From Alphaproteobacteria bacterium (GTDB taxonomy: Bacteria > Pseudomonadota > Alphaproteobacteria > SMXP01), in contig JANQPV010000044.1 in NCBI GenBank assembly GCA_028285305.1, positions 124,001 through 188,000 on the forward strand: DNA of 64,000 bases, read 5' to 3'. Shown in pieces: positions 22,241 through 47,949 of this stretch. The notes below the pieces were generated by a model. It made no database searches. It was not told the origin of the DNA and saw nothing but the letters and a program-made list of their open reading frames with translations. The translations under genes and the position numbers were made by a program. Within the stretch, counting starts at the first letter, position 1. The number at the start of each line of letters is the position of its first letter.

Positions 22241-22283
22241 CAAAGAGTTCCATTGAGCTCTTTTGAAGACTTTTCGGGTTCAT

Positions 22284-24887: not shown

Positions 24888-24903
24888 CGGGACGCAAGAG
24901 CTG

Positions 24904-25878: not shown

Positions 25879-25930
25879 GACCGTCACGGCTGGGGAGACG
25901 CGCGCAATTTGCTGCGGGTCAGACTCTCAC

Positions 25931-27403: not shown

Positions 27404-27433
27404 GTTTCCACCAACCCGGCGGCCGTTAACCAT

Positions 27434-30910: not shown

Positions 30911-31204
30911 CTAGGGACTGATCAAAGTGTAAAGATCGTCCCAATCCGGATTATCGCGCTCAATGAGTTCGATCTTCCAGGCGCGGTTCCACCGCTTCAA
31001 CCGTCGTTCGCGCTTGGCTGCATCGAACCTATTGGTGAAACTCTCCACGTGCACCAATCGCTTTACATCGTACTTGCGGGTGAAACCCGGGACGACTGCG
31101 ATCCGGTGCTCATACACACGCCGAGCGATGTTGTTGGTCAGGCCCGTATATAATGTGCCGTTCCGCTTGCTCGCTAGAATATAGACATAGAAGGCTTGAT
31201 CCAT
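30911..31204 (-). CDS. GIY-YIG nuclease family protein
   Basis: This protein of about 97 residues starts at ATG 31204 (a start 30 bp upstream is less likely). It is a minimal single-domain GIY-YIG protein: FYVYILASKRNGTLYTGLT holds the two motif strands, followed by the Arg of NNIARRVYEHR, the helix FTNRFDAAKRERRLKRWNRAWKIELIE, and the terminal NPDWDDLY. The family includes small structure-specific endonucleases such as YhbQ. It lies antisense to the flanking operon and exactly between two clusters of the same repeats, as if it were part of a mobile or passenger unit. Confidence 0.88.
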   Translation of the reverse strand: MDQAFYVYILASKRNGTLYTGLTNNIARRVYEHRIAVVPGFTRKYDVKRLVHVESFTNRFDAAKRERRLKRWNRAWKIELIERDNPDWDDLYTLISP

Positions 31205-31792
31205 ACAAAGAGTATATATGAAGCTATGGAACATATCAAGAACAGAGTTGAGTGGACAAAGTTTTTGGGTCGCCGGTCACGCGCTTCGCGCGGCCGGGGA
31301 AAGCGCCGTGGGTTGGCCGACGGAGTCTCAATGATGGTTCTTCCCCCGTCTTGAACGGGGGTCCAATTTCTTGTTGGATCCCCGGGCGAGCCGGGGAAAT
31401 GACACGTGGTTGTCGTGGGAAGGATAGAAACTGATCCTTTCCCCCGACGAGCAAACGGAGTTTGCGAAGATCGGGGGTCCAGTGTCGTACTTTCCGGACG
31501 TAACATGCGGAACGTGCTCACATTGAGATTTCGGGAATGGATCCCCGGTCGAGCCGGGAAATGAAGGTGGGTGATGGTGAAACGTACGCGAAGCTCATTC
31601 GCCCGCCAAACGGGCGTAGCGAGTGCCGAGCGGGGGTCCATTTTCTTGCTGGATCCCCGGTCACGCCGGGGAAATGACCTCTGTGATCGAGTGTTAGTCT
31701 TATGTTTACTTTCCAACATCGCGCAGCGGCATTGAGAGTTCGTTCACCCCGTTTTGGCACACTGTGTTCAATTCACTCGGAGCCGCCAGACC
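31205..31792. repeat. Repeat cluster 3, module order C-B-A
   Basis: Modules C (31473-31558), B (31556-31600) and A (31603-31665) lie in direct orientation but reverse order to cluster 2. A further copy of the CGGTCACGCGCTTCGCGCGG hairpin sits at 31273-31299, and CCCGTC/GACGGG-type stems punctuate the rest. Nothing in the stretch looks coding. The last 100 bp hold the promoter and ribosome site of the PilZ gene. Confidence 0.85.
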
Positions 31793-32131
31793 ATGACCTC
31801 TCAGTCAAACCCCCTTCGTGTAGGCGCCGCGGGACAGGAGCGCCGGCGCCACAAGCGCTATGAAGTGGAGTGGAACGTCAATATCGAGTTCGATGGCGAG
31901 ATCTATCATGTGACGGTTTCGGACGTCAGCGTGTCGGGGGCCCTCGTTTTGGCGTCCAGCCCACCGCCCATTGGGGAGTATTTAAAACTCGAACTTCCCG
32001 GATATGGTTGGATTGGCGCACGTATTGTTCATGCCTCGGATGACTTTTGCGGGATAGAGTTTACTGATCCGGCAAAGCACAGAGACTCTCTTGCGCGCTG
32101 GCTCTCCCAAGAACTTGTCGAAGGGGTCTGA
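31793..32131 (+). CDS. PilZ-domain c-di-GMP receptor
   Basis: This is a protein of about 112 residues consisting of one PilZ domain. The c-di-GMP site is visible: RRRHKR (RxxxR) near the N-terminus and DVSVSGALV (D/NxSxxG) after the first two strands. It ends with CGIEFTDPAKHRDSLARWLSQEL. I chose the ATG at 31793 since the family begins there; one at 31754 is possible. It lies 11 bp before the prepilin peptidase gene and so is part of the secretion/pilus locus, where a PilZ protein would link c-di-GMP level to assembly. Confidence 0.9.
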   Translation: MTSQSNPLRVGAAGQERRRHKRYEVEWNVNIEFDGEIYHVTVSDVSVSGALVLASSPPPIGEYLKLELPGYGWIGARIVHASDDFCGIEFTDPAKHRDSLARWLSQELVEGV

Positions 32132-32142
32132 CCGGCAGGCTC

Positions 32143-32988
32143 ATGACCTTTGCTCTCGTTGCGGACCTCGTTCTTTATGGCCTGGTGCTGTTCGCGGGTC
32201 TGGCGGCCGGCAGTTACTTGAATGTTCTGGTCACGCGTTTGCCACTGCGCATTCTGGCGGCGGACGGTATTTCGGCTGACGAGCTCGGATGTGCCCGAAT
32301 GGACCCGTCCTCGGTGCGCTCCCTTTGTCCGTGCTGCGGGGTCTCGCTGCGTTGGTATGATAATGTTCCCCTCGTCAGCTATATTCTTCTCAAAGGCAAA
32401 TGCCGTTCGTGTCAGGCTGCGATTTCGATCAGATATCCGCTAGCAGAGGTCATGGTCGCCTTCGCTGCTCTTTTTGCGGTGGCGCTGTTTGGTATGACCT
32501 GGCACGCGTTAGGGGCATCCCTTTTCTTCTGGCTGTTGATCGCTGTCGCGATCATTGACTTTGAAACGGGCCTTATTCCCGATCTGCTCTCCTTCGGGGG
32601 ATTGATGCTTGGTCTTACCTATGCAGCCTTTACCGGTGCGGGGACCGAGGCTGTTTGGGGAGCGGTTCTCGGGTACGGATCCCTTTGGGCCCTGGCGACC
32701 GCGTATCGGGTTTCATCGGGCCAAGACGGCATGGGGCAAGGGGACCTTAAACTTGCCGCTATGTTGGGGGCGTGGTTGGGACCGATGGGGCTGTGGCTAT
32801 GTCTGACGATTGCGTTCGTGACCGGAACTCTCTTTGCGCTGGTCTTTGTCCTGCGGCGCAGTGAGGGGCTTCAGATGGCCGTCCCCTTTGGTCCCTTTTT
32901 GTGTTTGGGAGCGGCGACTGCGTTTCTCGTTCAAGAAAGCGGTGTCGACTGGATCACCGCTTGGACGAACTTTGTTCTCGGGTATTGA
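32143..32988 (+). CDS. Prepilin peptidase (GspO/PilD, A24 aspartic protease)
   Basis: This 281-residue polytopic enzyme cleaves and methylates prepilins at the inner membrane. The N-terminal domain holds the zinc cysteines LCPCCGVSLRW and GKCRSCQAAI. The catalytic aspartates are in AIIDFETGLIPD and in the GxGD-type loop GMGQGDLKLAAMLGAWLG. Seven or eight membrane segments are seen. Length is standard. It is the last plus-strand gene of the block and converges with the minus-strand lipoprotein gene 17 bp away. The gspO-type cytosolic methylase domain appears complete. Confidence 0.93.
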   Translation: MTFALVADLVLYGLVLFAGLAAGSYLNVLVTRLPLRILAADGISADELGCARMDPSSVRSLCPCCGVSLRWYDNVPLVSYILLKGKCRSCQAAISIRYPLAEVMVAFAALFAVALFGMTWHALGASLFFWLLIAVAIIDFETGLIPDLLSFGGLMLGLTYAAFTGAGTEAVWGAVLGYGSLWALATAYRVSSGQDGMGQGDLKLAAMLGAWLGPMGLWLCLTIAFVTGTLFALVFVLRRSEGLQMAVPFGPFLCLGAATAFLVQESGVDWITAWTNFVLGY

Positions 32989-33005: not shown

Positions 33006-33779
33006 TTATTGGGTGGATGCCGTTTCGAACTCTTCCAAATCAAGGGCCGTTTCTTGCATCCAATCCATGATCCAATAGTCCATCAGGACACGGGACATGG
33101 TCGGCATTGTGCCGTAACGGTATTCCATTCGAACATAATGCTTCACATCGGGCGCGTAGTACCACCTTTCAAATCCTGACCAGTTCGTGGTTATGTTCCG
33201 GGTCCGCCAGACAATCACCCAGGTGTCGAAGGTACCGGCCGGAACGGTGATGCGCTTCTTGCCCTCGACAGTCCAAGAGGTCGCGTGGGTTCTCAGCTCC
33301 CCATTGGAGAGGTACTCCCGCTGAAACGTCAGCGGTTTGTTGCTACTCAGGCTTTTCATTTGTTCCGGTTCTAAGGTGCGGTAGATGACCTGCCGGGTGC
33401 TTGTCGCCGATGATGATCTATCCCGGAAAAACCCCTTGCGTGTAAACCACTGGTCTGGTGTGTCGGTTCGGTGAAACGTAGTTGTTCCTTCATCGATGGA
33501 GGTTACACGTAATCCGTAACCATCGCTATAGGTCCACCAATCGCCTTTATTCCAAGCGGGGGGCGTGATTCTTCCACGCAAACGAGACAGGGAGCCCGGC
33601 TTTGCGAAAGGCTGCGATGAGGCCTGCGCACTCGACAGGTCTTCCTCACTCGCGGCACTGGGAGACAAAGAGGTACTGATCGGGTCAACGATGCGTTCGT
33701 TCAACGTTGCGCAGCCGCCGGTGGTGGCGCTAAGGGTGAGCAGAAGTGTCAGGCGATGGAGCGTTCGGCGGTTTATCAT
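33006..33779 (-). CDS. Lipoprotein of unknown function at end of secretion operon
   Basis: This 257-residue protein has a lipoprotein signal, RLTLLLTLSATTGGC, with Cys near residue 23, and then a Ser/Pro-rich linker of about 40 residues. The folded part (from WNKGDWWTYSDGYG) is rich in Trp and Tyr and contains KRITVPAGTFDTWVIVWRTRN, a pattern seen in DUF3108-like beta-barrel lipoproteins; the match is weak. It is the last gene of the minus-strand operon, 27 bp after a small membrane protein. A role as pilotin or secretin partner is possible but only by position. Confidence 0.7.
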   Translation of the reverse strand: MINRRTLHRLTLLLTLSATTGGCATLNERIVDPISTSLSPSAASEEDLSSAQASSQPFAKPGSLSRLRGRITPPAWNKGDWWTYSDGYGLRVTSIDEGTTTFHRTDTPDQWFTRKGFFRDRSSSATSTRQVIYRTLEPEQMKSLSSNKPLTFQREYLSNGELRTHATSWTVEGKKRITVPAGTFDTWVIVWRTRNITTNWSGFERWYYAPDVKHYVRMEYRYGTMPTMSRVLMDYWIMDWMQETALDLEEFETASTQ

Positions 33780-33806
33780 GATTATCAGGATCAGCCATGT
33801 GAGGCT

Positions 33807-34235
33807 TTACGGTGTCCACCCCCGCGCCAGGATTTTGCCTTCGCCGTCGAACTCTAGGTAAAACATCTGGGCTGCGACTTTGCCTTCCTTGATTGAATGG
33901 GCTCGGGGCCAGGCGCGAAACTGATATCTGTCCTCATCGACTTCCGAGGCTTCCAGCATGTAGTGGGTGGACAAAGTGGGCGGGACATCCGCTTTGGCGA
34001 TCATCTTTTTCCCGTCGCGATGATCGATACCGAAGGGTGCAAAATCACCGCCACGCGAAAGTGCTGTGCGATGCGATTCACTTGCCGTCAACAGAGAGTC
34101 CTCGACTTCTGACTTCACGCGATTGATGTGTGTACTGTGTAACAGTGAAGATATACCGACCCACACTCCGATCGTCACAAGCGAAAGGATGAGGGCTGCG
34201 CCAATAATCATTTGGGTGCGGGTCACTTCCATCAC
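33807..34235 (-). CDS. Small single-pass membrane protein next to secretin
   Basis: This 142-residue protein has one hydrophobic helix (TQMIIGAALILSLVTIGVWVGI) just after a short N-terminus and a soluble C-terminal domain of about 110 residues. No prepilin Gly-Phe site is present, so it is not a pseudopilin. Its start overlaps the secretin stop by 4 bp, which implies linked synthesis. Size and topology would suit a reduced GspC-like or pilus accessory protein, but no family can be claimed. Confidence 0.7.
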   Translation of the reverse strand: MMEVTRTQMIIGAALILSLVTIGVWVGISSLLHSTHINRVKSEVEDSLLTASESHRTALSRGGDFAPFGIDHRDGKKMIAKADVPPTLSTHYMLEASEVDEDRYQFRAWPRAHSIKEGKVAAQMFYLEFDGEGKILARGWTP

Positions 34236-36178
34236 TCATCCTCCTCCAGGCGGTGAATGGAAATGGGGGGTGCAGGGCTGTCGCGGTAAACCTGGTTTGT
34301 TTGTTCCTGTAAGAAGCTGCGTTGCCGCTCGATATAATCGGCCGAGCCGACCATGGTGGCTATGTCTTTGTCGGCGAGTTGGGTTTCTTCCACGACTTTT
34401 GGTGTGATGAAGAATATGGTCTCGCGAACAGTATTCGAGGAGTTCCGGGAGCGGAACAGCTTGCCGACCCCGGGTACCTTCCGCAGCCCCGGAACGCCGG
34501 TTTTGCGATCCATATAGGTGTCATCAAATAACCCGCCAATTACGTACGTTGCTCCATTGGGCACCAACACGTTGGTTTGAACCTCTTGAGAGGTCACGTC
34601 AATCTCGCCAAAAACGCCGCCGCCCGGTGCGGAGTTGATCGCATTCAAATTGAGCCGGATCATGGTCTCTTCAGACGGTCCACGAGCCTCAATCACCGAG
34701 GGACTGATCTCCAGCGTCAATCCGGTTCTGATTTCTTCCAATCCAACCCCATTTTCGCTTCCGGTATCGGTCTGTACAAATATGTTTTGGCTGCGCGTGA
34801 TGCTTGCCGTGTTGTTGTCGAGCGTAACGAGACGGGGGGCCGATAAAACCGTTCCTTTGTTGTCTTCCGAGAGCGCGCGCAACTGTGCCTGTAGGAACCC
34901 TTCCGAGCCGCGTATGACGAAAGAGGCCACACTGCCGCCGGCGCCCGGCGCTAACGGGAGCAGGGAAATTGCGTCCAAACCGTTGGTCGTAAACAGGTTG
35001 CCGCTGTCTCCGTCAACAATGCCGCCGTCCGTGCCCGTGTCAAAGGCGCCGCTCTTGGGGTCTCCGTCTGCGCCGGTGAGGGATCCGCGCCATGCGATCC
35101 CTAAATTCTCAGCGGTTCCAACTTCGGCGCGGGCGATGACGACTTCGATTAGGACCATGCGTTGGGGCTTGTCCAGTTCGCGAACGAGACGCTCAACTTC
35201 AGCGACAAATCGGGGCGCGCCCCAGACAACGACGGAATTGGTGCGCTCGTCAATAGAGATTCGTCCACGTCCTAAGAGGCCTCCTGGCCCCTTCGCAGCC
35301 CCGTCCTGATAGTCCATCTCATCGCGATAATCTTCGATGAGACTGGTGCCCAGGAGAGCCCTCAGAGTTTCTTCCAGACCGGGTATGGACATGGTTTCGC
35401 CCTGAAACTTTTTCGTGGTCGGACCAACCTCGGCGAAGCGCAACGGGATCACTTTGATGCGAGCGGACTCCCAGTCAAAGTCATCGGCAAGTCCAAGACG
35501 TGCGGTCTCAACCGGCTGTCCATCTTCTCCCAACAGAGTGGCCGGATCGATCTTGGCGTAATGTTCCTCAAGGGTCTCGATCAGTTTTTCCAATTCGCCT
35601 AAGCGTTTTTCAGAGCCGAAGGCAGACACTGTGCGGCTTGCAGGATCGTAACTGATCCCCGATGTGCCAAGGCCAAAATTCTTGAGCGCTTTGGTGAGCT
35701 GGGCGAAGGGGACCCGCTTCAGCGTGAAGAAGGCCCTCTCGTTCGCCCGTCCGTATTCTGAGTTTTGAGGGTAGACCGTGACCGTGCGCGTCAACGGATC
35801 GTACCGGTAGGCCAAGGAAAACTGATCCGCGATTTGCTCAAAGATCAACCGAGGCGCCACGTCCGAATAGGTCGAGGTGACTTTGCCTTCTAAGGGAGCG
35901 GGAAACATGGCCGAAAGATTGTTCGCGGACAAGAGGCTCCGCAATATCGTCCCGATTGGTTCGTTGACGGATGTACGAGAGTATTTGACGCTATCATCCC
36001 ACGGGATGGTCGATACCTGCTGGCTATAGGCATTGCCCGAGACGATTGTGATCAAGATGAGGGCGAAGGCAGTTCGGAGAAGAACACGGGCGTCAAGCAG
36101 TCCCGTTCGCGCGCGGCCGGGGAGCCCGCTCTTTCCGAGAGCGGTGCTCACCCTTCTCTGATAGTTCACCGTCACCAT
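34232..36178 (-). CDS. gspD: Type II secretion/type IV pilus secretin (GspD/PilQ family)
   Basis: This 648-residue outer-membrane channel subunit has a signal peptide near residues 33-51 (LLRTAFALILITIVSGNAYSQ), suggesting the true start may be downstream of the first ATG. Periplasmic N domains follow, including a TYSDVAPRLIFEQIADQFSLAYRYD secretin N0-like region. The secretin core begins near residue 340 and contains the VPGLRKVPGVGKLF motif. The terminal region has FFITPKVVEE. Length suits GspD. It lies between the PP2C gene and a small membrane protein on the minus strand. Confidence 0.92.
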   Translation of the reverse strand: MVTVNYQRRVSTALGKSGLPGRARTGLLDARVLLRTAFALILITIVSGNAYSQQVSTIPWDDSVKYSRTSVNEPIGTILRSLLSANNLSAMFPAPLEGKVTSTYSDVAPRLIFEQIADQFSLAYRYDPLTRTVTVYPQNSEYGRANERAFFTLKRVPFAQLTKALKNFGLGTSGISYDPASRTVSAFGSEKRLGELEKLIETLEEHYAKIDPATLLGEDGQPVETARLGLADDFDWESARIKVIPLRFAEVGPTTKKFQGETMSIPGLEETLRALLGTSLIEDYRDEMDYQDGAAKGPGGLLGRGRISIDERTNSVVVWGAPRFVAEVERLVRELDKPQRMVLIEVVIARAEVGTAENLGIAWRGSLTGADGDPKSGAFDTGTDGGIVDGDSGNLFTTNGLDAISLLPLAPGAGGSVASFVIRGSEGFLQAQLRALSEDNKGTVLSAPRLVTLDNNTASITRSQNIFVQTDTGSENGVGLEEIRTGLTLEISPSVIEARGPSEETMIRLNLNAINSAPGGGVFGEIDVTSQEVQTNVLVPNGATYVIGGLFDDTYMDRKTGVPGLRKVPGVGKLFRSRNSSNTVRETIFFITPKVVEETQLADKDIATMVGSADYIERQRSFLQEQTNQVYRDSPAPPISIHRLEEDE

Positions 36179-36291
36179 TTCACTGCAATCCGATCAGCAT
36201 TCAAATTAGCAAAAGCCCAGCTCTTAGGCGGGTTTCAGGTACTGTCACTTTTTCGGAAAAGCGTAATTTTATGGTTAAGAAGGGGCTAAGA

Positions 36292-37056
36292 TCAGCGGAT
36301 CCAAGCCACAATGACGGAGAGATTGTCTTTCGACCCCGCGTCTGTTGCCGCTGTGATGAGCGCCTCGCACAACGCTGTTCCACAGTCGGGGATGTGCCCG
36401 TCCATGACATTCAAAATTGCGTCATCATCCAGGGTACCGCTTATGCCGTCCGAGCAGAGAATAAAGACATCGTTAACACGTGGTTTGATGCCCGCGACGT
36501 CGACCTCAATTGAGGACTGTATACCCACGGCACGGTTGAGAATGTTCTTGCTCGGACACTCCCCTTCGCTTCCCGCCATTTTCCAGGCCTCAAAGGATGT
36601 GTGGTCTCTCGTCAACAAATTGAGCTTTCCATCGCGGTACAAATAAATGCGCGAGTCGCCCGCATGGCAGTAAGAAAGATACTCATAGTCATGTTCGGGC
36701 CATAACAAGCTCGCAATTGTCGATCCCACCGGGTTCCCTGCGCGTTCGGGATCCGTTTGATTTTCCTCATAGAGGCGTGCGTTTGCCCGCTGGACACCTG
36801 ATTTGAGGATCGCCGACGTTATTCCGCTCTGTGTCTTGAGCGTTTGGCCAGGCGATCCTGCTGTGTCGGGAAGAGACTCTTCTGCGTGAGCGCGCAATTC
36901 TTCAACGACCGTTTGAGACGCGGATACTGCTTCGGGCCGGCTGCCCATCCCGTCTGCCAAGACACAGAGGCCCAGGCGTTCTTCGGAGAGAACTGTGTCG
37001 GCATTCAGCTGTCTGACCGGTCCGATCTCGGACTTCGAGGCGAATGAGAGTTTCAT
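36292..37056 (-). CDS. PP2C-family Ser/Thr protein phosphatase
   Basis: This is a 254-residue single-domain phosphatase. I use ATG 37056; a TTG at 37077 would add 7 residues. All the metal-binding motifs of PP2C/SpoIIE-type phosphatases are present: RQLNADTV, VLADGMGSRPEA, YCHAGDSRIYLYRDG, TRDHTSFE, ILCSDGISGTLDD and SKDNLSVIVAW. It would remove phosphate from Ser/Thr in the cytoplasm. It lies 19-40 bp after the FHA-histidine kinase gene and in the same operon as a Ser/Thr kinase, so it is the natural antagonist of that kinase, as PppA is of PpkA in type VI secretion. Confidence 0.93.
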   Translation of the reverse strand: MKLSFASKSEIGPVRQLNADTVLSEERLGLCVLADGMGSRPEAVSASQTVVEELRAHAEESLPDTAGSPGQTLKTQSGITSAILKSGVQRANARLYEENQTDPERAGNPVGSTIASLLWPEHDYEYLSYCHAGDSRIYLYRDGKLNLLTRDHTSFEAWKMAGSEGECPSKNILNRAVGIQSSIEVDVAGIKPRVNDVFILCSDGISGTLDDDAILNVMDGHIPDCGTALCEALITAATDAGSKDNLSVIVAWIR

Positions 37057-37096
37057 CTTTTCAAGTTCGTACCTCAATGGGTCGCGGGCGTAAGCT

Positions 37097-38359
37097 TTAT
37101 TCCGTCTCTACACAGAATTCAATGAATGGCGTGTCTCCCTTAAGCGGGTGATCACCCAAATAAATCCTGCCTGAACCTTCGAGTTTGACGCTTGCGCCGT
37201 GTTGTAAGCTTACGAGTTCGTCGTCCTCTTTCATAATGTGGCTTCCGGACCTGCTTTCGTCGCGATATGTAAAGCTTCCGTTTTCGTAAGAGACTGACGC
37301 GTGGGGACGTGATACACGTTTATCGTCAACGATGATGTCGCAGCCAATTAAAGGCGGCTTCGTTCTGTTTCGGCCAATGAGGATTTTGCCGCAGCCGGCA
37401 TAAAAGACGCGTTCAAAGCCTTGATAGCTGATCTTCAAGAGATTCTTGAGGCTGACGCTTGGATCGGTATCGTCGAAGAAGATGGTTTCATCTTCACTGT
37501 GGTTGATGACCTCATTGCGGAATGTGGGCATAACGATTGAGACGATCGTTCCTACATCGACACGGCTCTCAAAATTTAGTGTCGCTCCGTGTAGATCAGC
37601 GATCCGCGAAACGACCGTGAGACCCGTTCCCAATCCCGCAGTCTTGCGGGTCAGTACGTCTTCAGCGAAGTAGAAGGGGGCCGTGATCTCGTTAAGCTTC
37701 TGTTTTTCGATGCCGCAGCCCACATCCTTGACGCTCAGAATGACGTGTCCCTCGCCATTCTGTGCTCCGCTGACGGTGATCACGTCTCCCGCCTCGGAAA
37801 ACTTGATGGCATTGTCGATGAGATTGACAAGCGCCTGGGTCAACGCGCGCTGATCCACGTAAACTTTCGGAAGTCCGGGTTGGATTTCCGTTCGAATGCT
37901 CTGGCCACTGTCAGTTACTTGCTTCTGGACAAGGCGGACAGCTGCCGTCGTAATTTCGTGGACCGACTCATACTCTTCATTGAGGGCGACTTTGCCGGCT
38001 TCGTGGCGGGCAACGTTTAGCAAATCGTTTACGACAGCAGTCAGCTTCTCTCCGCCTTCCTTGATTGATTTTAAGTATTCCTTATACTGGTCATTGCCGA
38101 TCGGTCCTTCGACTTCGGCAAGCATCAGATCGCAATAGCCTACGATCGCGTTGAGTGGTGTTTTGAGCTCATGTGTGGTGTTGGACAGAAACGCGTCCTT
38201 CGCCAGCCGGGTTTCGTCCTGAGCGGCGAGGAGCTTGGCAATCTCTTTGCGCAGTAACTCGACTTCGGACTCGGGGCTGTTTGTGGCCTCGGCGTCCTGG
38301 TTCGCCGGCGCGTCATTCGAATGAACGAGCGAGATACTGGATTCTTGAGGCTGAGACAT
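37097..38359 (-). CDS. Histidine kinase with C-terminal FHA domain
   Basis: This 420-residue soluble protein has three parts. A HisKA box carries H63 in NTTHELKTPLNAIVG. A HATPase domain (about 165-280) has NLIDNAIKFS, DVGCGIEKQ and GLGTGLTVVSRI. A C-terminal FHA domain spans about 320-410, with GR (329-330) and SRPH (350-353), the phosphothreonine-binding signature. The linker between catalytic and FHA parts is acidic and contains DETIFF with T292. FHA fused to a histidine kinase is rare. The FHA end should read Thr phosphorylation made by the kinase at 44245, joining two phosphorylation systems. No response regulator is seen. Confidence 0.92.
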   Translation of the reverse strand: MSQPQESSISLVHSNDAPANQDAEATNSPESEVELLRKEIAKLLAAQDETRLAKDAFLSNTTHELKTPLNAIVGYCDLMLAEVEGPIGNDQYKEYLKSIKEGGEKLTAVVNDLLNVARHEAGKVALNEEYESVHEITTAAVRLVQKQVTDSGQSIRTEIQPGLPKVYVDQRALTQALVNLIDNAIKFSEAGDVITVSGAQNGEGHVILSVKDVGCGIEKQKLNEITAPFYFAEDVLTRKTAGLGTGLTVVSRIADLHGATLNFESRVDVGTIVSIVMPTFRNEVINHSEDETIFFDDTDPSVSLKNLLKISYQGFERVFYAGCGKILIGRNRTKPPLIGCDIIVDDKRVSRPHASVSYENGSFTYRDESRSGSHIMKEDDELVSLQHGASVKLEGSGRIYLGDHPLKGDTPFIEFCVETE

Positions 38360-38448
38360 CGAAACTCAGTCGTCTGTTCCCTGTTGGTTACTCATTCATT
38401 ATTGGCTAGAAGTCTTTCGTTCCCGTAAAAAACGGCAGAAAACCTTGA

Positions 38449-39228
38449 CTACCCAGAGTTGAGAGGGGCGGCAAACTCTAGCACAAAACTGCGGGAGTCA
38501 TCCGAAAGCCAAACGCGGCTCGGCTCGATGCGCGTGATTTTTCGTCCTCCCAATACCTCGCCTTCGACGTAATCCCGTCCATCGATCGTGGCGGTTTCAA
38601 TTCCGTTAATGGAAGAGATGCCGGTTAAGGAGTGGATCGCATTTAGGGCCCAGTAATACTTGCCCTCGACCTCAATGCGGGTAGGTCGAAGCCGCGAGAA
38701 GGGGTTGCGCCACTTTGGGGTGGTCTCAGTATGCGCCGGAAAGGAATCCGAGATGAGGTTCCGCGGGGATGTCACTAATATACGTGTGCGGATATCCGGC
38801 GAAGTGCTAAACGAATTTTCGGCTGACAGATCGACTTCGGAAATCTCAAATCCCACAAACTCAAGATCCCGCAAGAAGGCGTTGGTTTCCCAAAAAGTGC
38901 CCTCTAAACCCAGCCGAATGAGGTTGGTTCGGGGCCCTTCGCGAAAGAGGTTCTCCAATCGAAGGGCGTGACGTGTGGCGCTACGATGGACCAGATCAAG
39001 GTGCTGGGCCAGGGCCGGGTCGAGTCCAACAAATTGTGTCCTGTCTTTCTGGGCGTTTTGGGATAAACTGGCCTGTATCAGAGACGTCAGTTCGATTGCT
39101 TGCTGCCGTGTCTGTTCAGCCCTCAGACTCTTGGACGCAAGCACAGCGAATACCGGCGTTGCCAAAACGATGATCATGAGGATGGCAACCAACGGGGAGA
39201 ATTCGAGCTTTCTGAGGTGATGCATCAT
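38449..39228 (-). CDS. GspM/PilO-like inner membrane assembly protein
   Basis: This 259-residue bitopic protein has a short cytoplasmic N-terminus, one helix (LVAILMIIVLATPVFAVLAS), a coiled-coil of about 60 residues and a ferredoxin-like periplasmic domain near 85-150 (RHALRLENLFREG..LEFVGFEISEVDLSAE), as in GspM and PilO. An extra C-terminal domain of about 90 residues contains a conserved-looking SINGIETATIDGRDYVEGEVLGGRKITRI, which resembles GspC/PulC HR-like or PilP sequence; this suggests a fused PilP/HR module. It lies 3 bp after the PilM/GspL-like gene. Confidence 0.75.
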   Translation of the reverse strand: MMHHLRKLEFSPLVAILMIIVLATPVFAVLASKSLRAEQTRQQAIELTSLIQASLSQNAQKDRTQFVGLDPALAQHLDLVHRSATRHALRLENLFREGPRTNLIRLGLEGTFWETNAFLRDLEFVGFEISEVDLSAENSFSTSPDIRTRILVTSPRNLISDSFPAHTETTPKWRNPFSRLRPTRIEVEGKYYWALNAIHSLTGISSINGIETATIDGRDYVEGEVLGGRKITRIEPSRVWLSDDSRSFVLEFAAPLNSG

Positions 39229-39231
39229 TGG

Positions 39232-40995
39232 TTATCGCCTCGCCACAATCAAGAAGTTGAGATCCGGACTGCCCTCACTGTTGCTTGTTCGGATCACTTT
39301 GACGTCGGACAGGCCGTCCATGAATGTCTCGTCTGATTTCAGACGGCGGACAAACTGATTGATGGCTGCTAGGGCTTGCTCATCCTGATTTCTAACGAAA
39401 CCGCTGATTTCGATTGCTCTGTCTGTACGCGAGTCTTGGGCGCCACCGCTAATGGATGTGATCCACATGCCATCGATCGAATGCTGCGCGATGGACACGA
39501 TCTTCGGCGCCCAAACTACCGTTGAACTTGAGGCTGGCTGAAACTCGTTTGCTTGTGGGGAGACGGGCGTCTCCCGGTCCGCAGTGATTTTTTTGGCTTG
39601 GTTTTCCGCTTGCTGATAGATGTTGAGTGCGGACCTCATCGAGCCTTGGGCGGGGGCATAAGAGAGTTGCCAAAGACCAAACACAATCGAAGCGAGAAGA
39701 GCCGCAAATGCGCCAACCTGCTTTATCGATTCTGCGTCGAACCCGGATGTTCGGCTCCCGAGTAAGGACATGAGGTCGGGCGCGCTTGAGAACGGATCAG
39801 TCGTTTTGGCTTTCTTGGGTGTTGCCGTGCTTTGGTTGGCCGTGAGCTGTCCTTTTTCGAATCGGTATGTTTGATCTCCGATCGTCAGCAGAGACTTTGG
39901 GGCGCCCGCCAGAAGGTTTGCAGATTGCCCCGTGGCGAGTTCGGTGATGAGGTCGTCGTTCGACAAAACAGATATTCCGCCTACCCCTAAAATCGCACTT
40001 ATCCAATTCGCCAACCCGCGGATTTGATCGATTTCCGGTGTCGCCACCGCTAAAGTCGGCTTACCATGGAGGCGCTGAAAGGCGAAGAACTCAAGGCCCT
40101 CTTGAAGTGCATGATAGATTTTCAGAAGCGGCGCCCGTAAGGCCTGCGCCGTTCCGGTCGATAAAGTGGGATTTGAAAAATCCTGCTCGAGAAAGGCTTG
40201 TGGATCCGGTAGGAGCGAACGGTTTGTCAAAGCTTCTTGCGCTTCTTCAGGGCTTACACCCATCTCGTCAGAAAGGATTTGACGCAGAGTTTGTGTTCCT
40301 ACACGGACCGTTTGCTGAAACACTGCACCGGAGACACGGTTTGCGAACAAGATTGTGGTGGTATGACCACCTATGTCGATTGCACAAGACGTCGTATCTT
40401 GCGAACGGGAGAGCCTCTGGATGAGGAGAGACAGTCTCGGGACGACTTCGGTTATGCGCAAACTCAACTGTCCCATCTCGATCAAGTATCGCCGAAGCGT
40501 GTCGATACCGGTCGAAAAGACAATCTCTCTGGTCTGCTCCTCGTTACTCGATTCACCGAAGGGAACGAGGGCGAACGCGCTTTCTTCCGCCCCCAATTGT
40601 TGTGCTGCGAATTCACGAACTTTCTGGGGGTCATCGTGCCGGAGGCGTGTCAGACGATTGTCAAAGGCTTCAATGGTCGGGTCGGCGATGATTAAATGCA
40701 CACAGCGAATGGCCCTTTGTTGGCTGGGAGACATCGCAGCCAGAGCATCTTGGATGATGGCAAGCTGATCGAGACTTGCTTCCGCCGCGTCGCCAGGACC
40801 CGAACTGGTAACGGACTCTGCGTCTTGCGAAGTTGCGCTGATTCGTGAGAACCAATTCTGGTCGGTGATGATAAGACAGAGTTGATCTGTACCTGATGCG
40901 GTTTCTTCCGCCGCTTCTGTGCCTCCAATCCTCAAACCGTCCGCAGAAAACGCCCGAGAGATAAAGTTCTGTATAATGTCGACGCCGACTTGCAT
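39232..40995 (-). CDS. GspL/PilM-PilN-like assembly platform protein
   Basis: This 587-residue protein has a cytoplasmic actin-like domain (about 1-400) with the ATP-site signature SCAIDIGGHTTTILFA and an IYHALQEGLEFFAF helix, as in PilM. A membrane helix follows near 430 (GAFAALLASIVFGLWQLSY), and a periplasmic PilN-like ferredoxin fold ends the chain (AIEISGFVRNQDEQALAAINQF). GspL of type II systems has the same plan in one chain. It docks the GspE ATPase to the inner membrane. It lies between gspF and the GspM-like gene. Confidence 0.85.
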   Translation of the reverse strand: MQVGVDIIQNFISRAFSADGLRIGGTEAAEETASGTDQLCLIITDQNWFSRISATSQDAESVTSSGPGDAAEASLDQLAIIQDALAAMSPSQQRAIRCVHLIIADPTIEAFDNRLTRLRHDDPQKVREFAAQQLGAEESAFALVPFGESSNEEQTREIVFSTGIDTLRRYLIEMGQLSLRITEVVPRLSLLIQRLSRSQDTTSCAIDIGGHTTTILFANRVSGAVFQQTVRVGTQTLRQILSDEMGVSPEEAQEALTNRSLLPDPQAFLEQDFSNPTLSTGTAQALRAPLLKIYHALQEGLEFFAFQRLHGKPTLAVATPEIDQIRGLANWISAILGVGGISVLSNDDLITELATGQSANLLAGAPKSLLTIGDQTYRFEKGQLTANQSTATPKKAKTTDPFSSAPDLMSLLGSRTSGFDAESIKQVGAFAALLASIVFGLWQLSYAPAQGSMRSALNIYQQAENQAKKITADRETPVSPQANEFQPASSSTVVWAPKIVSIAQHSIDGMWITSISGGAQDSRTDRAIEISGFVRNQDEQALAAINQFVRRLKSDETFMDGLSDVKVIRTSNSEGSPDLNFLIVARR

Positions 40996-41088
40996 GAACG
41001 TGTGTCTTGGATATCCCGCTGGAGAAGTATGACTACTAGAGCTGAGTAAGAATATTCCTAACGGGCGGAGGGGCCGGTTTACGGACTG

Positions 41089-42129
41089 TTAAACGAGTGT
41101 GGCTCCCGCCAGATCGAAGACTGGCAGGAATGCCGCGATCATCATGGCCGCAATCAGAAGTCCCGCAACGGCCGTCATGATCGGATTTGCAATGGATACA
41201 GCCGTTTCGATGCGCTGCTGCCAAAGGCGGTCATAGTAGGACGCAACTGAATCCAGCATTTCGTTGAGCTCGCCCGTTTGCTCGCCGACTGCCGCCATCT
41301 GTTGGACGACCCCGGTAAACAATGTGTGCCGTCCCAAGGCGTCTGCAAATCCAGAGCCTCGTTCAACGTCGGTTGCGACTTTCTCAACGCGATCAGCGAT
41401 GTGCAGGTTTCCTGTGGCGGGGGCCGAAAGACGCAAGGCGCGGACAACGCCGACAGAGCTGTCAACCTGCAAGGACATTGTGCGGGTGAATTGGGCGAGG
41501 GCGGCGAGGCGCCACACTTCGCCTAAGAACGGGAGGTGCAGCTTGCGCCGATCCCAGGCGGTGCGGCCTGCGGGTGTCGCCAGCACGGCTGATGCAACAA
41601 CTGCTACGGCGGCCCCCGCAATCAGGATCTCCAAGAGATGAGACGAGTAAAAATCACCAAAGGCCAATAGCATTTGTGTGGGGAGAGGCAGGTCTTTGCT
41701 GAACTGGGAGAACATCTTCTCAAATCGCGGCAAGATGAAAAACACCATGAGATTCATGGTGATAAGGAGGCCGGCAAACAAAACTACCGGATAGATGAGT
41801 GCGTTGCGCAGCTTTGTTCGTATACGTCCTGCCTGATCAAGATACTCGCTGACATTTGTCGCCGCATCGCTCAAGCGTCCCGTTTCCATACCCGCCCTGA
41901 TAATGCTGGTGTAGATGCCGCTAAACGTTGCTGACTGGATCTCGAGGGCGTCCGCGAAATCTACGCCGATCTTCACATTATCCAGCACGTTGCGGATCGC
42001 CTGTTTGAGCTGCTTATCCGGCGTGTCCTTCGCCAGGTGCTCGAGCGCGTCGACGAGCGGTAAGCGGCTTCTCAGCATGGAGGCAAGCTGAGATGTGAAG
42101 ATGATCAATTGTCCGCGCGAGGAGCTCAT
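41089..42129 (-). CDS. gspF: Type II/IV inner membrane platform protein (GspF/PilC)
   Basis: This is a 346-residue polytopic protein with two tandem GspF domains and three hydrophobic segments (near 112-130, 165-185, 320-340). The N-terminal domain shows FTSQLASMLRSRLPLVDALEHLA and GIYTSIIRAGMETGRLSDA; the second repeat has QFTRTMSLQVDSSVGVVRALR and QQMAAVGEQTGELNEMLDSVASYYD. It lacks the N-terminal 50 residues of standard GspF (about 400), starting directly at the first domain. It overlaps the gspE stop by 4 bp. Confidence 0.93.
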   Translation of the reverse strand: MSSSRGQLIIFTSQLASMLRSRLPLVDALEHLAKDTPDKQLKQAIRNVLDNVKIGVDFADALEIQSATFSGIYTSIIRAGMETGRLSDAATNVSEYLDQAGRIRTKLRNALIYPVVLFAGLLITMNLMVFFILPRFEKMFSQFSKDLPLPTQMLLAFGDFYSSHLLEILIAGAAVAVVASAVLATPAGRTAWDRRKLHLPFLGEVWRLAALAQFTRTMSLQVDSSVGVVRALRLSAPATGNLHIADRVEKVATDVERGSGFADALGRHTLFTGVVQQMAAVGEQTGELNEMLDSVASYYDRLWQQRIETAVSIANPIMTAVAGLLIAAMMIAAFLPVFDLAGATLV

Positions 42130-44240
42130 GTCTGGCCGTCACCGAATACGCGGATGACTTCCGTCAGGGTCGTGGCTCCCTCTTCCACCAGCTCGACTGC
42201 ATGATTCAACATCGTGCTCATGCCCAAATCTTTTGCTTGCTGGCGCATGTCCTCGGTACTGAAGTTCGTGCTGGCGATCAGTTCTCGCATGTGGTGATCT
42301 ATATCAAGCAGCTCGAACACCGCCTGGCGGCCCGAGTAGCCGGTGTGCCGACAAGATGCGCATCCTGTTGGGTGGACGAGCGGTGTGTTGGAATCTAATT
42401 CGATCCCGAGGCTTTCGATCTTGCCTTCAGAAACCCCTTCGGTTTGAAGGATACCCAGCATCTCCGAGCCTGAAATCGACACCGCACACTCTCTGCATAC
42501 GGAACGAACAAGTCGCTGTGAGACCGTCAGCGAAAGTGCAGATGCAACGAGAAAGGGCTCGACACCCATGTCGAGCAAGCGGCTTACAACGCCCACGGCA
42601 TCGTTTGCGTGGATTGTGGAGAAAACTACGTGTCCAGTGAGCGAGGCCTGCACAGCTAGTTCTGCAGTTTGTACATCCCGGCACTCACCCACCATAATGA
42701 CATCCGGATCCTGGCGCAGAATCGTGCGTAGGCCGGCAGCAAAGGTCAGTCCGATTTTGTCGTTGGTCTGCATTTGGTGAACGCCTTGGAGGCGGTACTC
42801 GACCGGGTCTTCAATGGTCACGACATGGCGGTTTTCACGGTCAACCGCCGTTAAGCAGGAATAGAGTGTTGTCGTTTTTCCTGCACCTGTTGGTCCGCCC
42901 ACGAATATTAAACCATGGGGATTGTTGATTTTGTCGAGGAACAAGCGAAGACTTTCGTTGCGAAGTCCAAGCATCTCAGGCGTGGGCCGCAGAGCGTCTT
43001 CATCAAGAAGACGCATAGCGATTTTTTCGCCGCCAACAGTGGGAAAGCTCGATACGCGAATGTCAATCGGGGTCTTGCGAATAACAGCACTGATGCGGCC
43101 GTCTTGGGGGCGACGTCGTTCGGCCACATCCATGCCGGAAAGAATTTTGATTCGAGACACTAAGGGCGCATGAAGATTTTTTGGCAGGCGCGTGAGTTCC
43201 TGCAAGAGACCGTCCACTCGAATTCGCGTAATCAAAGCGTCTTCTGCGGGTTCAACATGCAGGTCAGATGCACTGTGCTCGATTGATTTGTGAAGGAGGA
43301 AATCAACGATGGCAGGTACTTGGTTGACATCGGAGTTCCCGATCGCACGTTCGGTTTTCTCCCAATTGACATCGACGGGAACCAAATAGTCCGAGCGGGT
43401 CTTTTGTTCATCGCCGTGGCGCCTTAGTCGGCCGATCACTTCGAGAAAAACCCGGGGCGAGACGACGACGGGCTGTGCCGGTTTACCGGAGGTTCGGCTC
43501 ACCCAGTTCTTTGCAAACAGATCAAATGGATCGTAGGCGGCGTAAGTGCATACGGAGGGATCGTCTGATTTTATGACGAGGACTCCGCGCTGCAGGGCCA
43601 CATTCGGGGGAAGCCAGTCGGTTGCTTCGACTTCATTTAGGAGCGCAAGCTTGTCTTCGATGAATAGCGTACCGAGGGCTTGGGCGGCTTCACGGCAGAG
43701 GTCGTCCACGTTCGAAATCGAAGAGTCTGCAATCAATGTCCGCCAAACGGTCTCATCGCGCTCTCTCGCTTTTAGAGCGATTGATACGGCTTTGCGTTCC
43801 GGGAGCACGCCTGAAACAATGAGGTGCTGGATGAAGGCGCCGAGCAATCCCGTGCTGGCCGCTGATGTGCTGGCTGATTGCTCATTTGGGGAAACCTGAG
43901 GTTTCGAAATATTGACCTTGGGTTTGCCGAAGAACTTTTTCGATTTGGGTTTTGCTTCGGTGTGGTTCCGGTCTCCGGCAGGAATGGATTGACCCGCATC
44001 CGGCTCAAAGACTGTTTCATCACTGCTTTCGAGGGATTGGTCGTCTGGGCTCGTCAGTTCCTGTTGTAACTCAACGGCGACCTTGATGAGTTTTGACACT
44101 GGTGTATCAGGCCCGACAGGAGAAGCGGGGTTTTGTTCGAATACAGTTTCGTCCTCCTCTTGTGCAGAGGCCAGATGATCTGCTTGCTGAGACATAGTCT
44201 CAGTTTCGGTTCCACCTTCAACTGCTTTGGGCCGCGCCAT
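42126..44240 (-). CDS. gspE: Type II/IV assembly ATPase (GspE/PilB)
   Basis: This 704-residue ATPase drives pseudopilus assembly at the inner membrane. Walker A is GPTGAGKTTTLY (K455); the Asp box is SASDLHVEPAEDA; Walker B is ILRQDPDVIMVGECRD, with Cys in place of Ile in the usual GEIRD; the His box is VFSTIHANDA. A zinc tetracysteine (VCREC...GCASC) is present. The first 135 residues are an acidic, probably disordered tail that repeats DETVFE at residues 30-35 and 74-79. That tail is not standard and is a candidate phosphorylation platform for the kinase encoded 4 bp upstream. Confidence 0.95.
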   Translation of the reverse strand: MARPKAVEGGTETETMSQQADHLASAQEEDETVFEQNPASPVGPDTPVSKLIKVAVELQQELTSPDDQSLESSDETVFEPDAGQSIPAGDRNHTEAKPKSKKFFGKPKVNISKPQVSPNEQSASTSAASTGLLGAFIQHLIVSGVLPERKAVSIALKARERDETVWRTLIADSSISNVDDLCREAAQALGTLFIEDKLALLNEVEATDWLPPNVALQRGVLVIKSDDPSVCTYAAYDPFDLFAKNWVSRTSGKPAQPVVVSPRVFLEVIGRLRRHGDEQKTRSDYLVPVDVNWEKTERAIGNSDVNQVPAIVDFLLHKSIEHSASDLHVEPAEDALITRIRVDGLLQELTRLPKNLHAPLVSRIKILSGMDVAERRRPQDGRISAVIRKTPIDIRVSSFPTVGGEKIAMRLLDEDALRPTPEMLGLRNESLRLFLDKINNPHGLIFVGGPTGAGKTTTLYSCLTAVDRENRHVVTIEDPVEYRLQGVHQMQTNDKIGLTFAAGLRTILRQDPDVIMVGECRDVQTAELAVQASLTGHVVFSTIHANDAVGVVSRLLDMGVEPFLVASALSLTVSQRLVRSVCRECAVSISGSEMLGILQTEGVSEGKIESLGIELDSNTPLVHPTGCASCRHTGYSGRQAVFELLDIDHHMRELIASTNFSTEDMRQQAKDLGMSTMLNHAVELVEEGATTLTEVIRVFGDGQT

Positions 44241-44244
44241 ATCG

Positions 44245-45807
44245 TCATCTCTGATCTAAGGGGATGACGATGCGGAAGCCCAGATCCGGTCTCGGCTGGT
44301 CTGCTGCACTATGCGACCGGAAACTGCACCTTCCATGAGAGGGAAAACTGTCGTAACTCCCCCCACGGATGACTTTTTCTGCACCTTCAGGATTGAAAAC
44401 CGGGTCTTTGTGACCTTTGGTTATGGATGCGAAAGCGTGTTCGAGGTAACCATCTTGGCACCATTCCCATACGTTTCCGCACATGTCCCGCAGACCCCAG
44501 CGATTGTTACCGCGCGGATGACTGCCCGAAGGGAGCGGACTTTCGCAAACGCCGTTTAGATTCGCAGTGGTGCCATCAGGCTTTGCTGCACCCCAGGGAT
44601 ATTCGGCATTTGACTCACCCGCCTTTGCCGCCACCTCCCATTCTGCCTCGGTCGGAAGTCTTCCTCCGGCCCACTCAGCGTAGGTCGACGCCTGTTCCCA
44701 ACTCACACAAACGACTGGACAGTCGGGGCGCCCAAAGATCGGATCGGAGAGAAGTGGAGGGGCGGAAGACCCTGTTGCGTCCATGAACCTTTGATAATCC
44801 GCGTTCGTCACAGTTGAACGGCTGATCTGGAAAGCGGAGAGTTGAACCATTCGCGAGGGGCGCTCGTTTTCCCGCGCATTGGGATTGGCGGATCCGATGA
44901 AATATGCCCCTTCGGGGACTTCGACATACTCGCCTGTCTCTTCTTTAGGTGCGGAGGCAAACTCGAGTCCGGTTCCGAGGGATACTTCGCTTAAAAGCTC
45001 GCAAACCAATCCGGCGTCTTCCGGCCGGCGCTCGAGGTCCGACTCCACCATCTGTAAGATCAGTCGGTCAAGCTCAGGGGGGATGGCGCCGCAAAAGCTG
45101 CTGGGCGGTGTCATTTTGCTGCTGGTGATGTTGGGTATATCGCCGCCTTTCGTTAGCGAAATGAGGCTGCTTTCCGGCAGGCGCCCGTCTGTGAGCAGTT
45201 CGTATGCAACTATGCCTAATGAGAAGATGTCCGAGCGCTTATCTTTGCGATCGGGAAACAAGTACTGCTCGGGCGGCATGTATTTGGGTGTTCCGCCCCT
45301 TAATGTCGGCCCGCCGTCCGTGCTGGTTGCCGAAAGGCCGAAGTCAAGAATGAGGGGATGTTCGCATGAACCGTTGCGCAAAAAGATGTTTGCCGGCTTG
45401 ATGTCCCTGTGAACAATCACGCTGTGCGCGGTCGCCAGTGCGGCAGCGGTGAGCCTCAGGACCGTTAAGCGGTCCGAGATCGTGTTAAGCAGTTCTCCCT
45501 TGTGGCGGGCGGACCAGGCCTTGAGTTCTTCGCCCTCCAAGAGTTCCATGATGATCCCAATCCCTTCCGGTCCTTCATATAGGTCATGGATCGGACAGAT
45601 GTTGGGGTGGCGCAGAGCGCGTGAAATGAGAACTTCGCGGCGGAGGCTGTCGACTTGACTGGCATCGGCGTGATGAATCTCTTTTAGGATCTTGATCGCG
45701 ACGGGGATACCGAGTTCAGAATCGAACACTCTGAAGACATCGGCTGCCCCCCCGCTGCCGAGCTGTTGCCAGTCCTGATATCTTTCGCTGACGGCCCGAG
45801 CGTACAT
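44245..45807 (-). CDS. Ser/Thr protein kinase fused to SUMF1/FGE-like domain
   Basis: This 520-residue protein has an N-terminal Hanks-type kinase (about 10-280): glycine loop GSGGAADVF, VAIK (K39), HRDIKPANIF (D135), LDFG (D155) and PPEQ. No membrane helix is seen, so it is cytoplasmic. The C-terminal part (about 294-518) is a SUMF1/formylglycine-generating-enzyme-like domain (EVPEGAYFIGS, CVSWEQASTYAEWAGGRLPTEAEWE, GNVWEWCQDGY, VIRGGSY, GFRIV). The active-site Cys pair of true FGE is absent: the region reads SHGRCSFRSHS. It is thus a kinase with a sensor/ligand domain. It probably phosphorylates GspE or the FHA-kinase. Confidence 0.93.
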   Translation of the reverse strand: MYARAVSERYQDWQQLGSGGAADVFRVFDSELGIPVAIKILKEIHHADASQVDSLRREVLISRALRHPNICPIHDLYEGPEGIGIIMELLEGEELKAWSARHKGELLNTISDRLTVLRLTAAALATAHSVIVHRDIKPANIFLRNGSCEHPLILDFGLSATSTDGGPTLRGGTPKYMPPEQYLFPDRKDKRSDIFSLGIVAYELLTDGRLPESSLISLTKGGDIPNITSSKMTPPSSFCGAIPPELDRLILQMVESDLERRPEDAGLVCELLSEVSLGTGLEFASAPKEETGEYVEVPEGAYFIGSANPNARENERPSRMVQLSAFQISRSTVTNADYQRFMDATGSSAPPLLSDPIFGRPDCPVVCVSWEQASTYAEWAGGRLPTEAEWEVAAKAGESNAEYPWGAAKPDGTTANLNGVCESPLPSGSHPRGNNRWGLRDMCGNVWEWCQDGYLEHAFASITKGHKDPVFNPEGAEKVIRGGSYDSFPSHGRCSFRSHSAADQPRPDLGFRIVIPLDQR

Positions 45808-45874
45808 GCCTCATACCTTCCGTATGGCAACCCAATCAGACCAGTTCGCTACGGGCGGGCTGGAGCGCTTTACC

Positions 45875-46471
45875 TTAACAGTTTGTACACGTGGCTTGCG
45901 CAAGTCCTGTGGCCGCACAATAGCCTCCAGCGGCCGCAGACGAGAAATCCGTTTCGCCTTTCACGTAAGGCAGACGATTTACGCGACCATCCCAGCCGGC
46001 GCTTGTTGTAAATACGTTCGTGTACATTAGTTTGCCGTTTTGGACGCTGGCTGTCGCCCGGCCGTTGGCTTGAACGCAGTACACAACCTCGCCGTTCAGC
46101 GGCCCCGCGGTCGCAACGATCGCGTCGATGGTGTAATCGAAGTTTCCATCAATCGCGAGCTGGGCTTGTGGAATAATGTCTGAGAGCTCATTGGCGCCGG
46201 AGCCGTCAGGAGTGAGGGTTGTGCCGTCGAGTTCTGCTTGGAGCGTGGCAGGTGTTTTGCGCTGGGTTTCAGCATAACCTGTAACCGCGCCCATAATCCG
46301 GCCCAAGGTCTGAGACACTTCTGCCGTTTCCGACGTGCGAATATAGGCAAAAAGGCGAGGAACACCGATTGCCGCGATGACGCCGATAATTGTTACGACG
46401 ACCATCAGCTCGACGAGCGTAAAGCCAAGTTTCTTTTTTGTGATGTTCCGGTTTGAAGCCACCTTAGACAT
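45875..46471 (-). CDS. Major pseudopilin/type IV pilin-like (GspG/PilA)
   Basis: This is a protein of about 198 residues, started at ATG 46471 preceded by GAGAGTAAGAG. The prepilin signal KKKLG^FTLVELMVVVTIIGVIAAIGVPRL is classical, with Glu+5. The globular domain is small and ends with a cysteine-rich tail, GGYCAATGLAQATCTNC, together with an inner VVYCVQ, consistent with a disulfide loop as in PilA. It is the first gene of the minus-strand operon and has a 67-bp gap to the kinase gene. The GspG calcium site cannot be confirmed. Confidence 0.87.
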   Translation of the reverse strand: MSKVASNRNITKKKLGFTLVELMVVVTIIGVIAAIGVPRLFAYIRTSETAEVSQTLGRIMGAVTGYAETQRKTPATLQAELDGTTLTPDGSGANELSDIIPQAQLAIDGNFDYTIDAIVATAGPLNGEVVYCVQANGRATASVQNGKLMYTNVFTTSAGWDGRVNRLPYVKGETDFSSAAAGGYCAATGLAQATCTNC

Positions 46472-46498
46472 AACTCTTACTCTCAACATAGCACCCAA

Positions 46499-47457: not shown

Positions 47458-47949
47458 GTTAACCGCTCCCTCCTTTAAACACTTTTATGACTGAATAGAG
47501 CCTTTCGACCCGTTTCAAAATGGTCAGATCTGACCATTGCTGAAATTCAGGGTGGTTGGGTCGGAAGGTTTCAATGGACGCGAGCGCATTGGATCGCTAT
47601 TGTGGAAAAGCATCCGATTTTCTCAATTTGATTGTCGTAAACGTCTTTGTGATCTCCGCTCCCAGCGGTGTATTCGGAACAAAAAAGCAATTACCGCCAG
47701 TGGGGACGGGTGTGTTGGGTTTGTTTGAGTAAAAAAATGGGGTGGATTTTCCGGCGTGACTGTTTGGTGACAGTCGGTCCCGCATCGTGTTCTATGATCC
47801 GCGTTAAGTTTAATCGATATCGCATATGCGGTTGAGGAACCGCTCAACACGTGGTCCACTCACGCTCTCTTCGAGTGCGTTTGTGGCGGTGCTGAGTTCT
47901 TTGCCCCTCCCGACGAAGTTTTTGTGTCGTACTAAGTTTGAGTGTTTCC
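47458..47949. other. Divergent promoter region before polyketide synthase
   Basis: No gene is supported. The stretch separates the small minus-strand gene from the PKS start. Besides the palindrome at 47519-47538 it holds a smaller perfect one, CGCATATGCG (47821-47830). Confidence 0.5.
47519..47538. promoter_or_regulatory. Perfect 20-bp palindrome, candidate operator
   Basis: AATGGTCAGATCTGACCATT is a perfect 20-bp inverted repeat. The half-site TGGTC matches operators of FadR/GntR-type repressors (TGGTCnnGACCA family). It sits 62 bp before the small minus-strand gene and 412 bp before the polyketide synthase. Confidence 0.6.

Follow-up and report, generated by a model that had tools for sequence, protein, structure and literature searches.

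Could a bacterial secretion machine be controlled by a phosphorylation switch encoded in its own operon? The question is raised by a 64,000-nucleotide stretch of DNA from an Alphaproteobacteria bacterium (assembly GCA_028285305.1, contig JANQPV010000044.1, positions 124,001 to 188,000; hereafter the window), in which a minus-strand operon (33006-46498) combines genes of a type II secretion system (T2SS)/type IV filament-like machine with those of a Ser/Thr kinase, a PP2C-type phosphatase and a histidine kinase (HK) bearing an FHA domain. FHA domains recognise phosphothreonine specifically (PMC3953482). Our best explanation, to which we assign a probability of about 0.62, is that these proteins would form a dedicated writer-reader-eraser circuit of threonine phosphorylation that acts on the assembly ATPase of the machine. 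The only threonine kinase found in the genome lies in the cluster with one phosphatase and one reader, and the motor carries short threonine tags of a type that such a kinase would mark; the machine therefore probably has its own phosphorylation switch.

An earlier account of this DNA, the sequence-only reading, had listed GspG, a kinase-SUMF1 fusion, GspE, GspF, GspL, a GspM-like protein, the HK with its FHA domain, PP2C and GspD. Pfam and NCBIfam matches, and AlphaFold in the case of GspL, bore out this content together with the order and strand of the genes, their spacing (intergenic gaps of -4 to 113 nt) and the catalytic motifs, which are present in the kinase, PP2C, HK and GspE as well as in the PilZ protein and the prepilin peptidase GspO encoded alongside. 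The operon end had been placed at 46471, but this position is an ATG within GspG, whose longest open reading frame (ORF) extends to 46498. As to the extent of the system, the operon was right, but the divergent half of the machine (28007-32988), the threonine motifs and the single-copy status of the signalling domains were absent from that account.

The signalling proteins

The proposed writer is a Hanks-type Ser/Thr kinase of 520 amino acids fused to a SUMF1/FGE-like domain (44245-45807, minus strand like all operon genes below; Pkinase 124 bits, FGE-sulfatase 179 bits). No membrane segment was found between the two domains in nine sequences (the window protein and eight homologues), and a single weak membrane score in the window kinase is located within the kinase fold. 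Since the linker lacks a membrane segment, we predict a cytoplasmic location for the SUMF1-like domain. With regard to the FGE-type cysteines, the GRC motif keeps one invariant residue (C494), and the upstream position is non-Cys as judged by eye from the alignment.

The proposed eraser is a PP2C-type Ser/Thr phosphatase (36292-37077; PP2C_2 41.9 bits; Stp1 model 141 bits, cut-off 230). Next to it is the proposed reader, a cytoplasmic HK (37097-38359; HisKA 60, HATPase_c 79 and FHA 36 bits), whose C-terminal FHA domain (residues 327-393, 37181-37381) exhibits the signature residues IGR and SRPH as well as DESRSG (the usual NG reads SG), and is conserved with the copy in G198, a second genome of the class. 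FHA is the only evident input of this HK, as it has no membrane segment and no recognised domain beyond the three. The proposed substrate is the assembly ATPase GspE (42126-44240; T2SSE 395 bits, GspE model 477 bits), with Walker A and CREC/CASC motifs, an MshEN domain and a 135-residue N-terminal tail. Pkinase, FHA and Stp1-type PP2C gave one match each in the 5.4-Mb genome (95% complete; the PP2C search covered the Stp1 type only), and all three matches lie within this operon.

Linkage of the kinase to gspE and position of the reader in relatives

Full-length relatives of the kinase-SUMF1 protein (41-55% identity) were found by a GTDB genome scan in Acidisphaera, Rhodospirillales, Magnetococcales and one Gammaproteobacterium, the nearest named kin being Acidisphaera (Acetobacteraceae), and searches of whole genomes revealed further carriers, namely G198 and five Magnetococcia. 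The gene is sparse (2/385 genomes of the class, 8/399 of a phylum sample and 7/48 of a Magnetococcia class sample), and among the five genomes of the window's own family and order, its own included, no other carrier was found. gspE follows the kinase gene in 16/16 loci with a readable downstream gene (the window, L005-L012, L014, L094 and L097-L101, from Alpha- and Gammaproteobacteria and Magnetococcales), while L015 stops after the kinase and has gspG, gspD and gspO upstream; L016, with a kinase-domain match only, was kept outside this count. The pairwise distances of kinase and GspE are correlated (r 0.94, 0/5000 permutations), as species history alone could bring about, and both trees place the window with Acidisphaera and G198. 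A kinase-SUMF1 paralogue without gsp neighbours was also seen in Rhodospirillales (L013:9833-11632), and it was set aside as a likely pseudokinase because HGN replaces HRD and KFG replaces DFG among its catalytic motifs.

Neither PP2C nor HK-FHA was found by BLAST (E 1e-6) in the main loci of the relatives, and PP2C and FHA were therefore searched for genome-wide. The notion that the relatives lack FHA was rejected, since the domain was found fused to the N-terminus of GspE in nine loci (L007, L009, L011, L012, L014 and L097-L100; 46-58 bits), all of them without an HK at the locus. In the window and in G198 the domain resides on an HK (33% identical) encoded beside PP2C. When the 385 class genomes were searched with the HK-FHA linker and FHA domain, strong matches (>250 bits; next best 41) were confined to G000 and G198, that is, to the same two class genomes that hold the kinase; the chance of this co-occurrence if random is 1/73,920, a rough guide given relatedness and transfer. 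In Acidisphaera the domain occurs on a SpoIIE-type phosphatase, encoded beside gspO and pilins in G745 and, as a homologue, beside a PP2C gene in G746. These FHA phosphatases have EDQTIF (the one adjoining gspO) and DEDATFI near their N-termini.

Two further arrangements of FHA genes were noted. The Magnetococcales loci L148-L152 have a PP2C gene with the gene of a class III cyclase after it, and the cyclase carries an FHA domain (domains checked in L149 only; in L152 ORF calling did not resolve the cyclase). In L098 (1815-4993) the genes directly upstream of gspD encode a second kinase of the Ser/Thr type, which has a cyclic-nucleotide-binding domain, and a membrane protein that combines FHA with DATVM/DATLM motifs.

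The neighbourhood search in other genomes, which the sequence-only reading had proposed, thus gave a divided result: the kinase was linked to gspE, but in G198 the HK-FHA and PP2C genes are unlinked to gsp genes. On this ground, and because kinase-FGE combinations occur in unrelated settings (the Poribacteria and Chloroflexi matches), it could be argued that chance co-transcription, or a general role in regulating envelope functions, accounts for the signalling genes, the machine not being their target. We consider this improbable in view of the gspE linkage in distant groups, the FHA-GspE fusions, the common DET[VI]F motif described below, and the single kinase, FHA and PP2C of the window genome. 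That the set belongs to the machine, as the sequence-only reading held, is favoured by the linkage, the fusions, the co-occurrence of HK-FHA with the kinase, the sole kinase and FHA, and the lack of a T6SS marker (below).

The same reading had compared the set with the PpkA/TagR/PppA/Fha pathway that switches the type VI secretion system (T6SS). In that pathway PpkA spans the membrane and TagR is periplasmic. The parallel stands as a functional one, but not as a specific derivation: no homologue has a membrane segment between kinase and SUMF1, the FHA domain is found on HK or GspE and not on a T6SS Fha protein, and the search for TssC/VipB gave no match in the window genome, in G198 and in the five Magnetococcia that it covered. 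The identical set of domain types, and the presence of TssC in the Acidisphaera and Rhodospirillales genomes, could be taken to suggest that the pathway was acquired directly from T6SS; we regard such an origin as very unlikely, and rejected it as the principal explanation given a genome without TssC and a soluble kinase-SUMF1 protein. In Agrobacterium, PpkA-made pThr14 of TssL is bound by Fha (PMC3953482). In both cases kinase, PP2C and FHA reader are encoded with the secretion machine, and here too a component of the machine is predicted to present the FHA target in its cytoplasmic N-terminal tail. Unlike in T6SS, the machine is T2SS/type IV pilus (T4P)-like, the predicted target is the tail of GspE, the kinase is soluble and fused to SUMF1, and the reader would be a histidine kinase or GspE itself.

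Threonine motifs and the predicted circuit

Across 47 window ORFs (19,563 residues) there are three copies of the motif DET[VI]F, versus 0.02 expected. Two copies (DETVF) are in the GspE tail, with Thr32 (44139-44153) and Thr76 (44007-44021) as candidate phosphosites, and the third (DETIF) is in the linker between HK and FHA, with Thr292 (37478-37492) as candidate. In the FHA-fused GspE proteins the domain is usually followed by tandem D/E-x-T-phi-phi motifs, for example DATVVRPR (L098) and DEATIMAP (L007). For the pattern D/E-(x)-T-phi-phi, the window tail has two occurrences compared with 0.10 in shuffled tails (p 0.004), and the corresponding values are 9 vs 0.58 for L098, 7 vs 0.57 for L099, 7 vs 0.18 for L100, 5 vs 0.22 for L007 and 4 vs 0.23 for L097. 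An uncharacterised protein encoded after gspF in L097 (14677-15348) and L098 (14737-15327) has acidic DDTTR/DDYTR motifs near its N-terminus, possibly phosphosites.

We infer the phosphosites, binding, direction and output of the circuit as follows. The kinase, acting in the cytoplasm and adjusted by its SUMF1-like domain, would phosphorylate Thr32 and Thr76 of GspE and Thr292 of HK. The FHA domain of HK would bind the phosphothreonine, so that HK is tied to the motor and/or the FHA domain closes on its own linker. Binding may alter assembly or activity of the motor, with HK reporting the state of the machine; PP2C would reset the phosphothreonine marks, and the PilZ protein would add a likely c-di-GMP input. 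In the relatives, phosphorylation may link subunits within or between motor hexamers, as the FHA domain fused to GspE adjoins the tandem motif array.

A different role for HK has to be weighed, namely that the circuit is a sensor and not a motor switch, the kinase marking the GspE of an engaged machine and FHA passing this on to HK, which changes gene expression elsewhere. The absence of any membrane segment or other sensor domain, with FHA as the only evident input, is in line with such a role, as is the FHA cyclase next to PP2C in Magnetococcales, likewise an output enzyme. On the other hand, nine loci have FHA on GspE itself and no HK at the locus, and no response regulator adjoins the HK gene. 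We therefore hold the sensor to be unlikely, though a better candidate than chance co-transcription.

Several points count against the circuit acting on GspE. The GspE tails of L006 and L010 have zero D/E-(x)-T-phi-phi motifs, and those of L094, L101 and L008 have one or two each, which is not significant. The pattern was chosen post hoc from the sequences themselves, and in L098 the array coincides with a tandem repeat of 30 bp in the DNA, so that its p-value overstates independence. PP2C is absent from the main loci of the relatives, HK-FHA and PP2C lie apart from gsp genes in G198 (the kinase still being linked), and the co-occurrence of HK-FHA and kinase rests on two genomes. The missing response regulator leaves the output of HK without a partner at the locus, and the genome is 95% complete.

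A wider proposal can be put forward tentatively, and we think it rather less probable than the circuit itself. The loci may represent type IV filament machines of a class of their own. In these, the multi-site tails of the assembly ATPase (up to eight or more motifs) would engage in phosphothreonine-FHA contacts and so form a kinase-written scaffold gating motor assembly, the reader having been exchanged among motor, histidine kinase and phosphatase in evolution.

Parts of this picture have precedents. As in some of the relatives, an N-terminal FHA domain is present on the motor ATPases of Tad pili (class III CpaF, PMC12019362) and of the Kil system of Myxococcus (KilF, PMC8460266), class III CpaF having a disordered linker too. 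They are, however, Tad/CpaF-type ATPases and not GspE, and the accessible portions of the two papers report no ATPase-coupled kinase gene and no tandem threonine array. The FHA-fused Tad class III family was tried as an assignment for the window GspE and rejected (GspE model 477 bits vs 56 bits for the TadA-family model). In Bdellovibrio DgcB (PMC6733907) the FHA domain is bound by phosphothreonine in its own flexible tail and controls the attached enzyme, but the enzyme so controlled is a diguanylate cyclase, neither a motor nor a histidine kinase. A type IV filament, the archaellum of Sulfolobus (PMC5300886), is also under the control of Ser/Thr kinases together with a phosphatase and an FHA protein, although there the network acts on transcription via the repressors ArnA/ArnB and not on the motor.

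FHA-fused motor ATPases of the Tad type and threonine phosphorylation of a secretion machine (T6SS) are thus known already, whereas no description of a threonine-phosphorylation switch for a T2SS/T4P-type machine was found. The main text of a survey of type IV filaments (PMC6668835) mentions neither FHA nor a kinase, a 2024 review of PilB control (PMC11656802) names only histidine-type kinases and leaves FHA unmentioned, and searches of the open-licence PMC literature that paired GspE or PilB with either FHA or Ser/Thr kinases did not return this system. Control of pilus and T2SS motors has been described in terms of c-di-GMP, cAMP and two-component systems. A machine that comes with the only threonine kinase, the only Stp1-type phosphatase and the only FHA reader found in its genome would be a minimal closed phospho-circuit with predicted sites, and for that reason writer, reader, eraser and substrate are separately testable, while relatives with the reader on the motor or on another enzyme amount to natural rewiring experiments.

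The machine and its surroundings

The machine is T2SS/type IV filament-like, with the T2SS core set all present (secretin, GspE, GspF, GspG, GspL/M-like proteins and prepilin peptidase), and GspD, GspE, GspF and GspG each score under the NCBIfam equivalog cut-offs. The operon encodes the GspG-like major pseudopilin (45875-46498; N_methyl 31 bits; GspG model 33 bits, under cut-off), the platform protein GspF (41089-42129; T2SSF 171 bits, GspF model 259 bits) and the secretin GspD (34232-36178; Secretin 124 bits, two Secretin_N). The GspL-like protein (39232-40995) has no Pfam match; AlphaFold and Foldseek indicate a PilM-like actin fold, a membrane helix and a ferredoxin-like end, with matches to PilM (E 2.8e-12) and cyto-EpsL (2.4e-7) for a model of mean pLDDT 66 (80-89 in much of the actin-like part). 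The GspM-like inner-membrane protein (38449-39228), with one N-terminal membrane segment, is so named from its position and its homology among these loci, no family profile standing behind the label; its homologues adjoin GspL in L006, L007, L009, L011 and L101. The operon closes with orf142 (33807-34235), a small membrane-anchored protein with one N-terminal membrane segment, and a DUF3108-like predicted lipoprotein (33006-33779; Pfam 22.8 bits, under cut-off). A gene of about the size of orf142 separates gspD from the lipoprotein gene in L009, L011, L015, L097-L100 and L173, and homologues of the lipoprotein in other loci are 33-44% identical; its AlphaFold model weakly matches a YmcC-like fold, from which no function is apparent.

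The plus-strand genes at 28007-32988, divergent from the operon, are taken as the other half of the machine because G198 keeps the same order, minor pilins-PilZ-GspO facing DUF3108-small gene-GspD, in a block on a separate contig. They comprise minor pseudopilins of the GspH/FimT type (28007-28663; N_methyl 28.6 bits; homologues in other loci) and the GspI/PilV type (28527-29345; N_methyl 20.2 bits, slightly below cut-off; syntenic homologues), minor pilin-like proteins without Pfam match in the conserved positions of PilW (29260-29946) and PilX/MshP (29943-30554), a PilZ-domain protein predicted to be a c-di-GMP receptor (31754-32131; 45.9 bits; RRHKR and DVSVSG motifs), whose gene is conserved in L006, L164 and L173, and the prepilin peptidase GspO/PilD (32143-32988; A24_N_bact and Peptidase_A24).

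Profiles for the GspC clamp and the GspK tip pseudopilin gave no match among the scanned proteins, orf142 and two pilin-like proteins being without family label. A T2SSE-family search of the whole genome gave two matches, this GspE and a CpaF-like ATPase with Tad-type neighbours, and hence no PilT retraction ATPase was found in the 95% complete sequence. As in the T2SS and the MSH pilus (PMC6668835), the locus has a secretin and GspE/F/G/L/M-like parts, as well as a prepilin peptidase (T2SS); here the conserved parts also include a phospho-circuit and a lipoprotein. Assignment as an MSH pilus was rejected, since the locus has a prepilin peptidase and the MshL model scores 81 bits vs a cut-off of 250; no MshM-like gene was seen in 28-47 kb. 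A promoter scan gave sites no commoner than in shuffled sequence.

The stretch between the pilin genes and PilZ contains GC-rich direct repeats 33-89 nt long (30587-31666; several pairs 91-100% alike), which lie around a GIY-YIG ORF (30911-31234). Just upstream of the pilin genes, the region 8574-27433 holds quorum-sensing genes of the LuxR and LuxI types and, after them, a cluster for exopolysaccharide (flippase, Wzz-like, Wzy-like and sugar transferase). On the other side of the operon, the plus strand encodes a polyketide synthase of 3113 amino acids (47938-57279; KS-AT-DH-ER-KR-ACP with a condensation domain at the end), followed by a weak phosphopantetheinyl transferase match (57289-58032).

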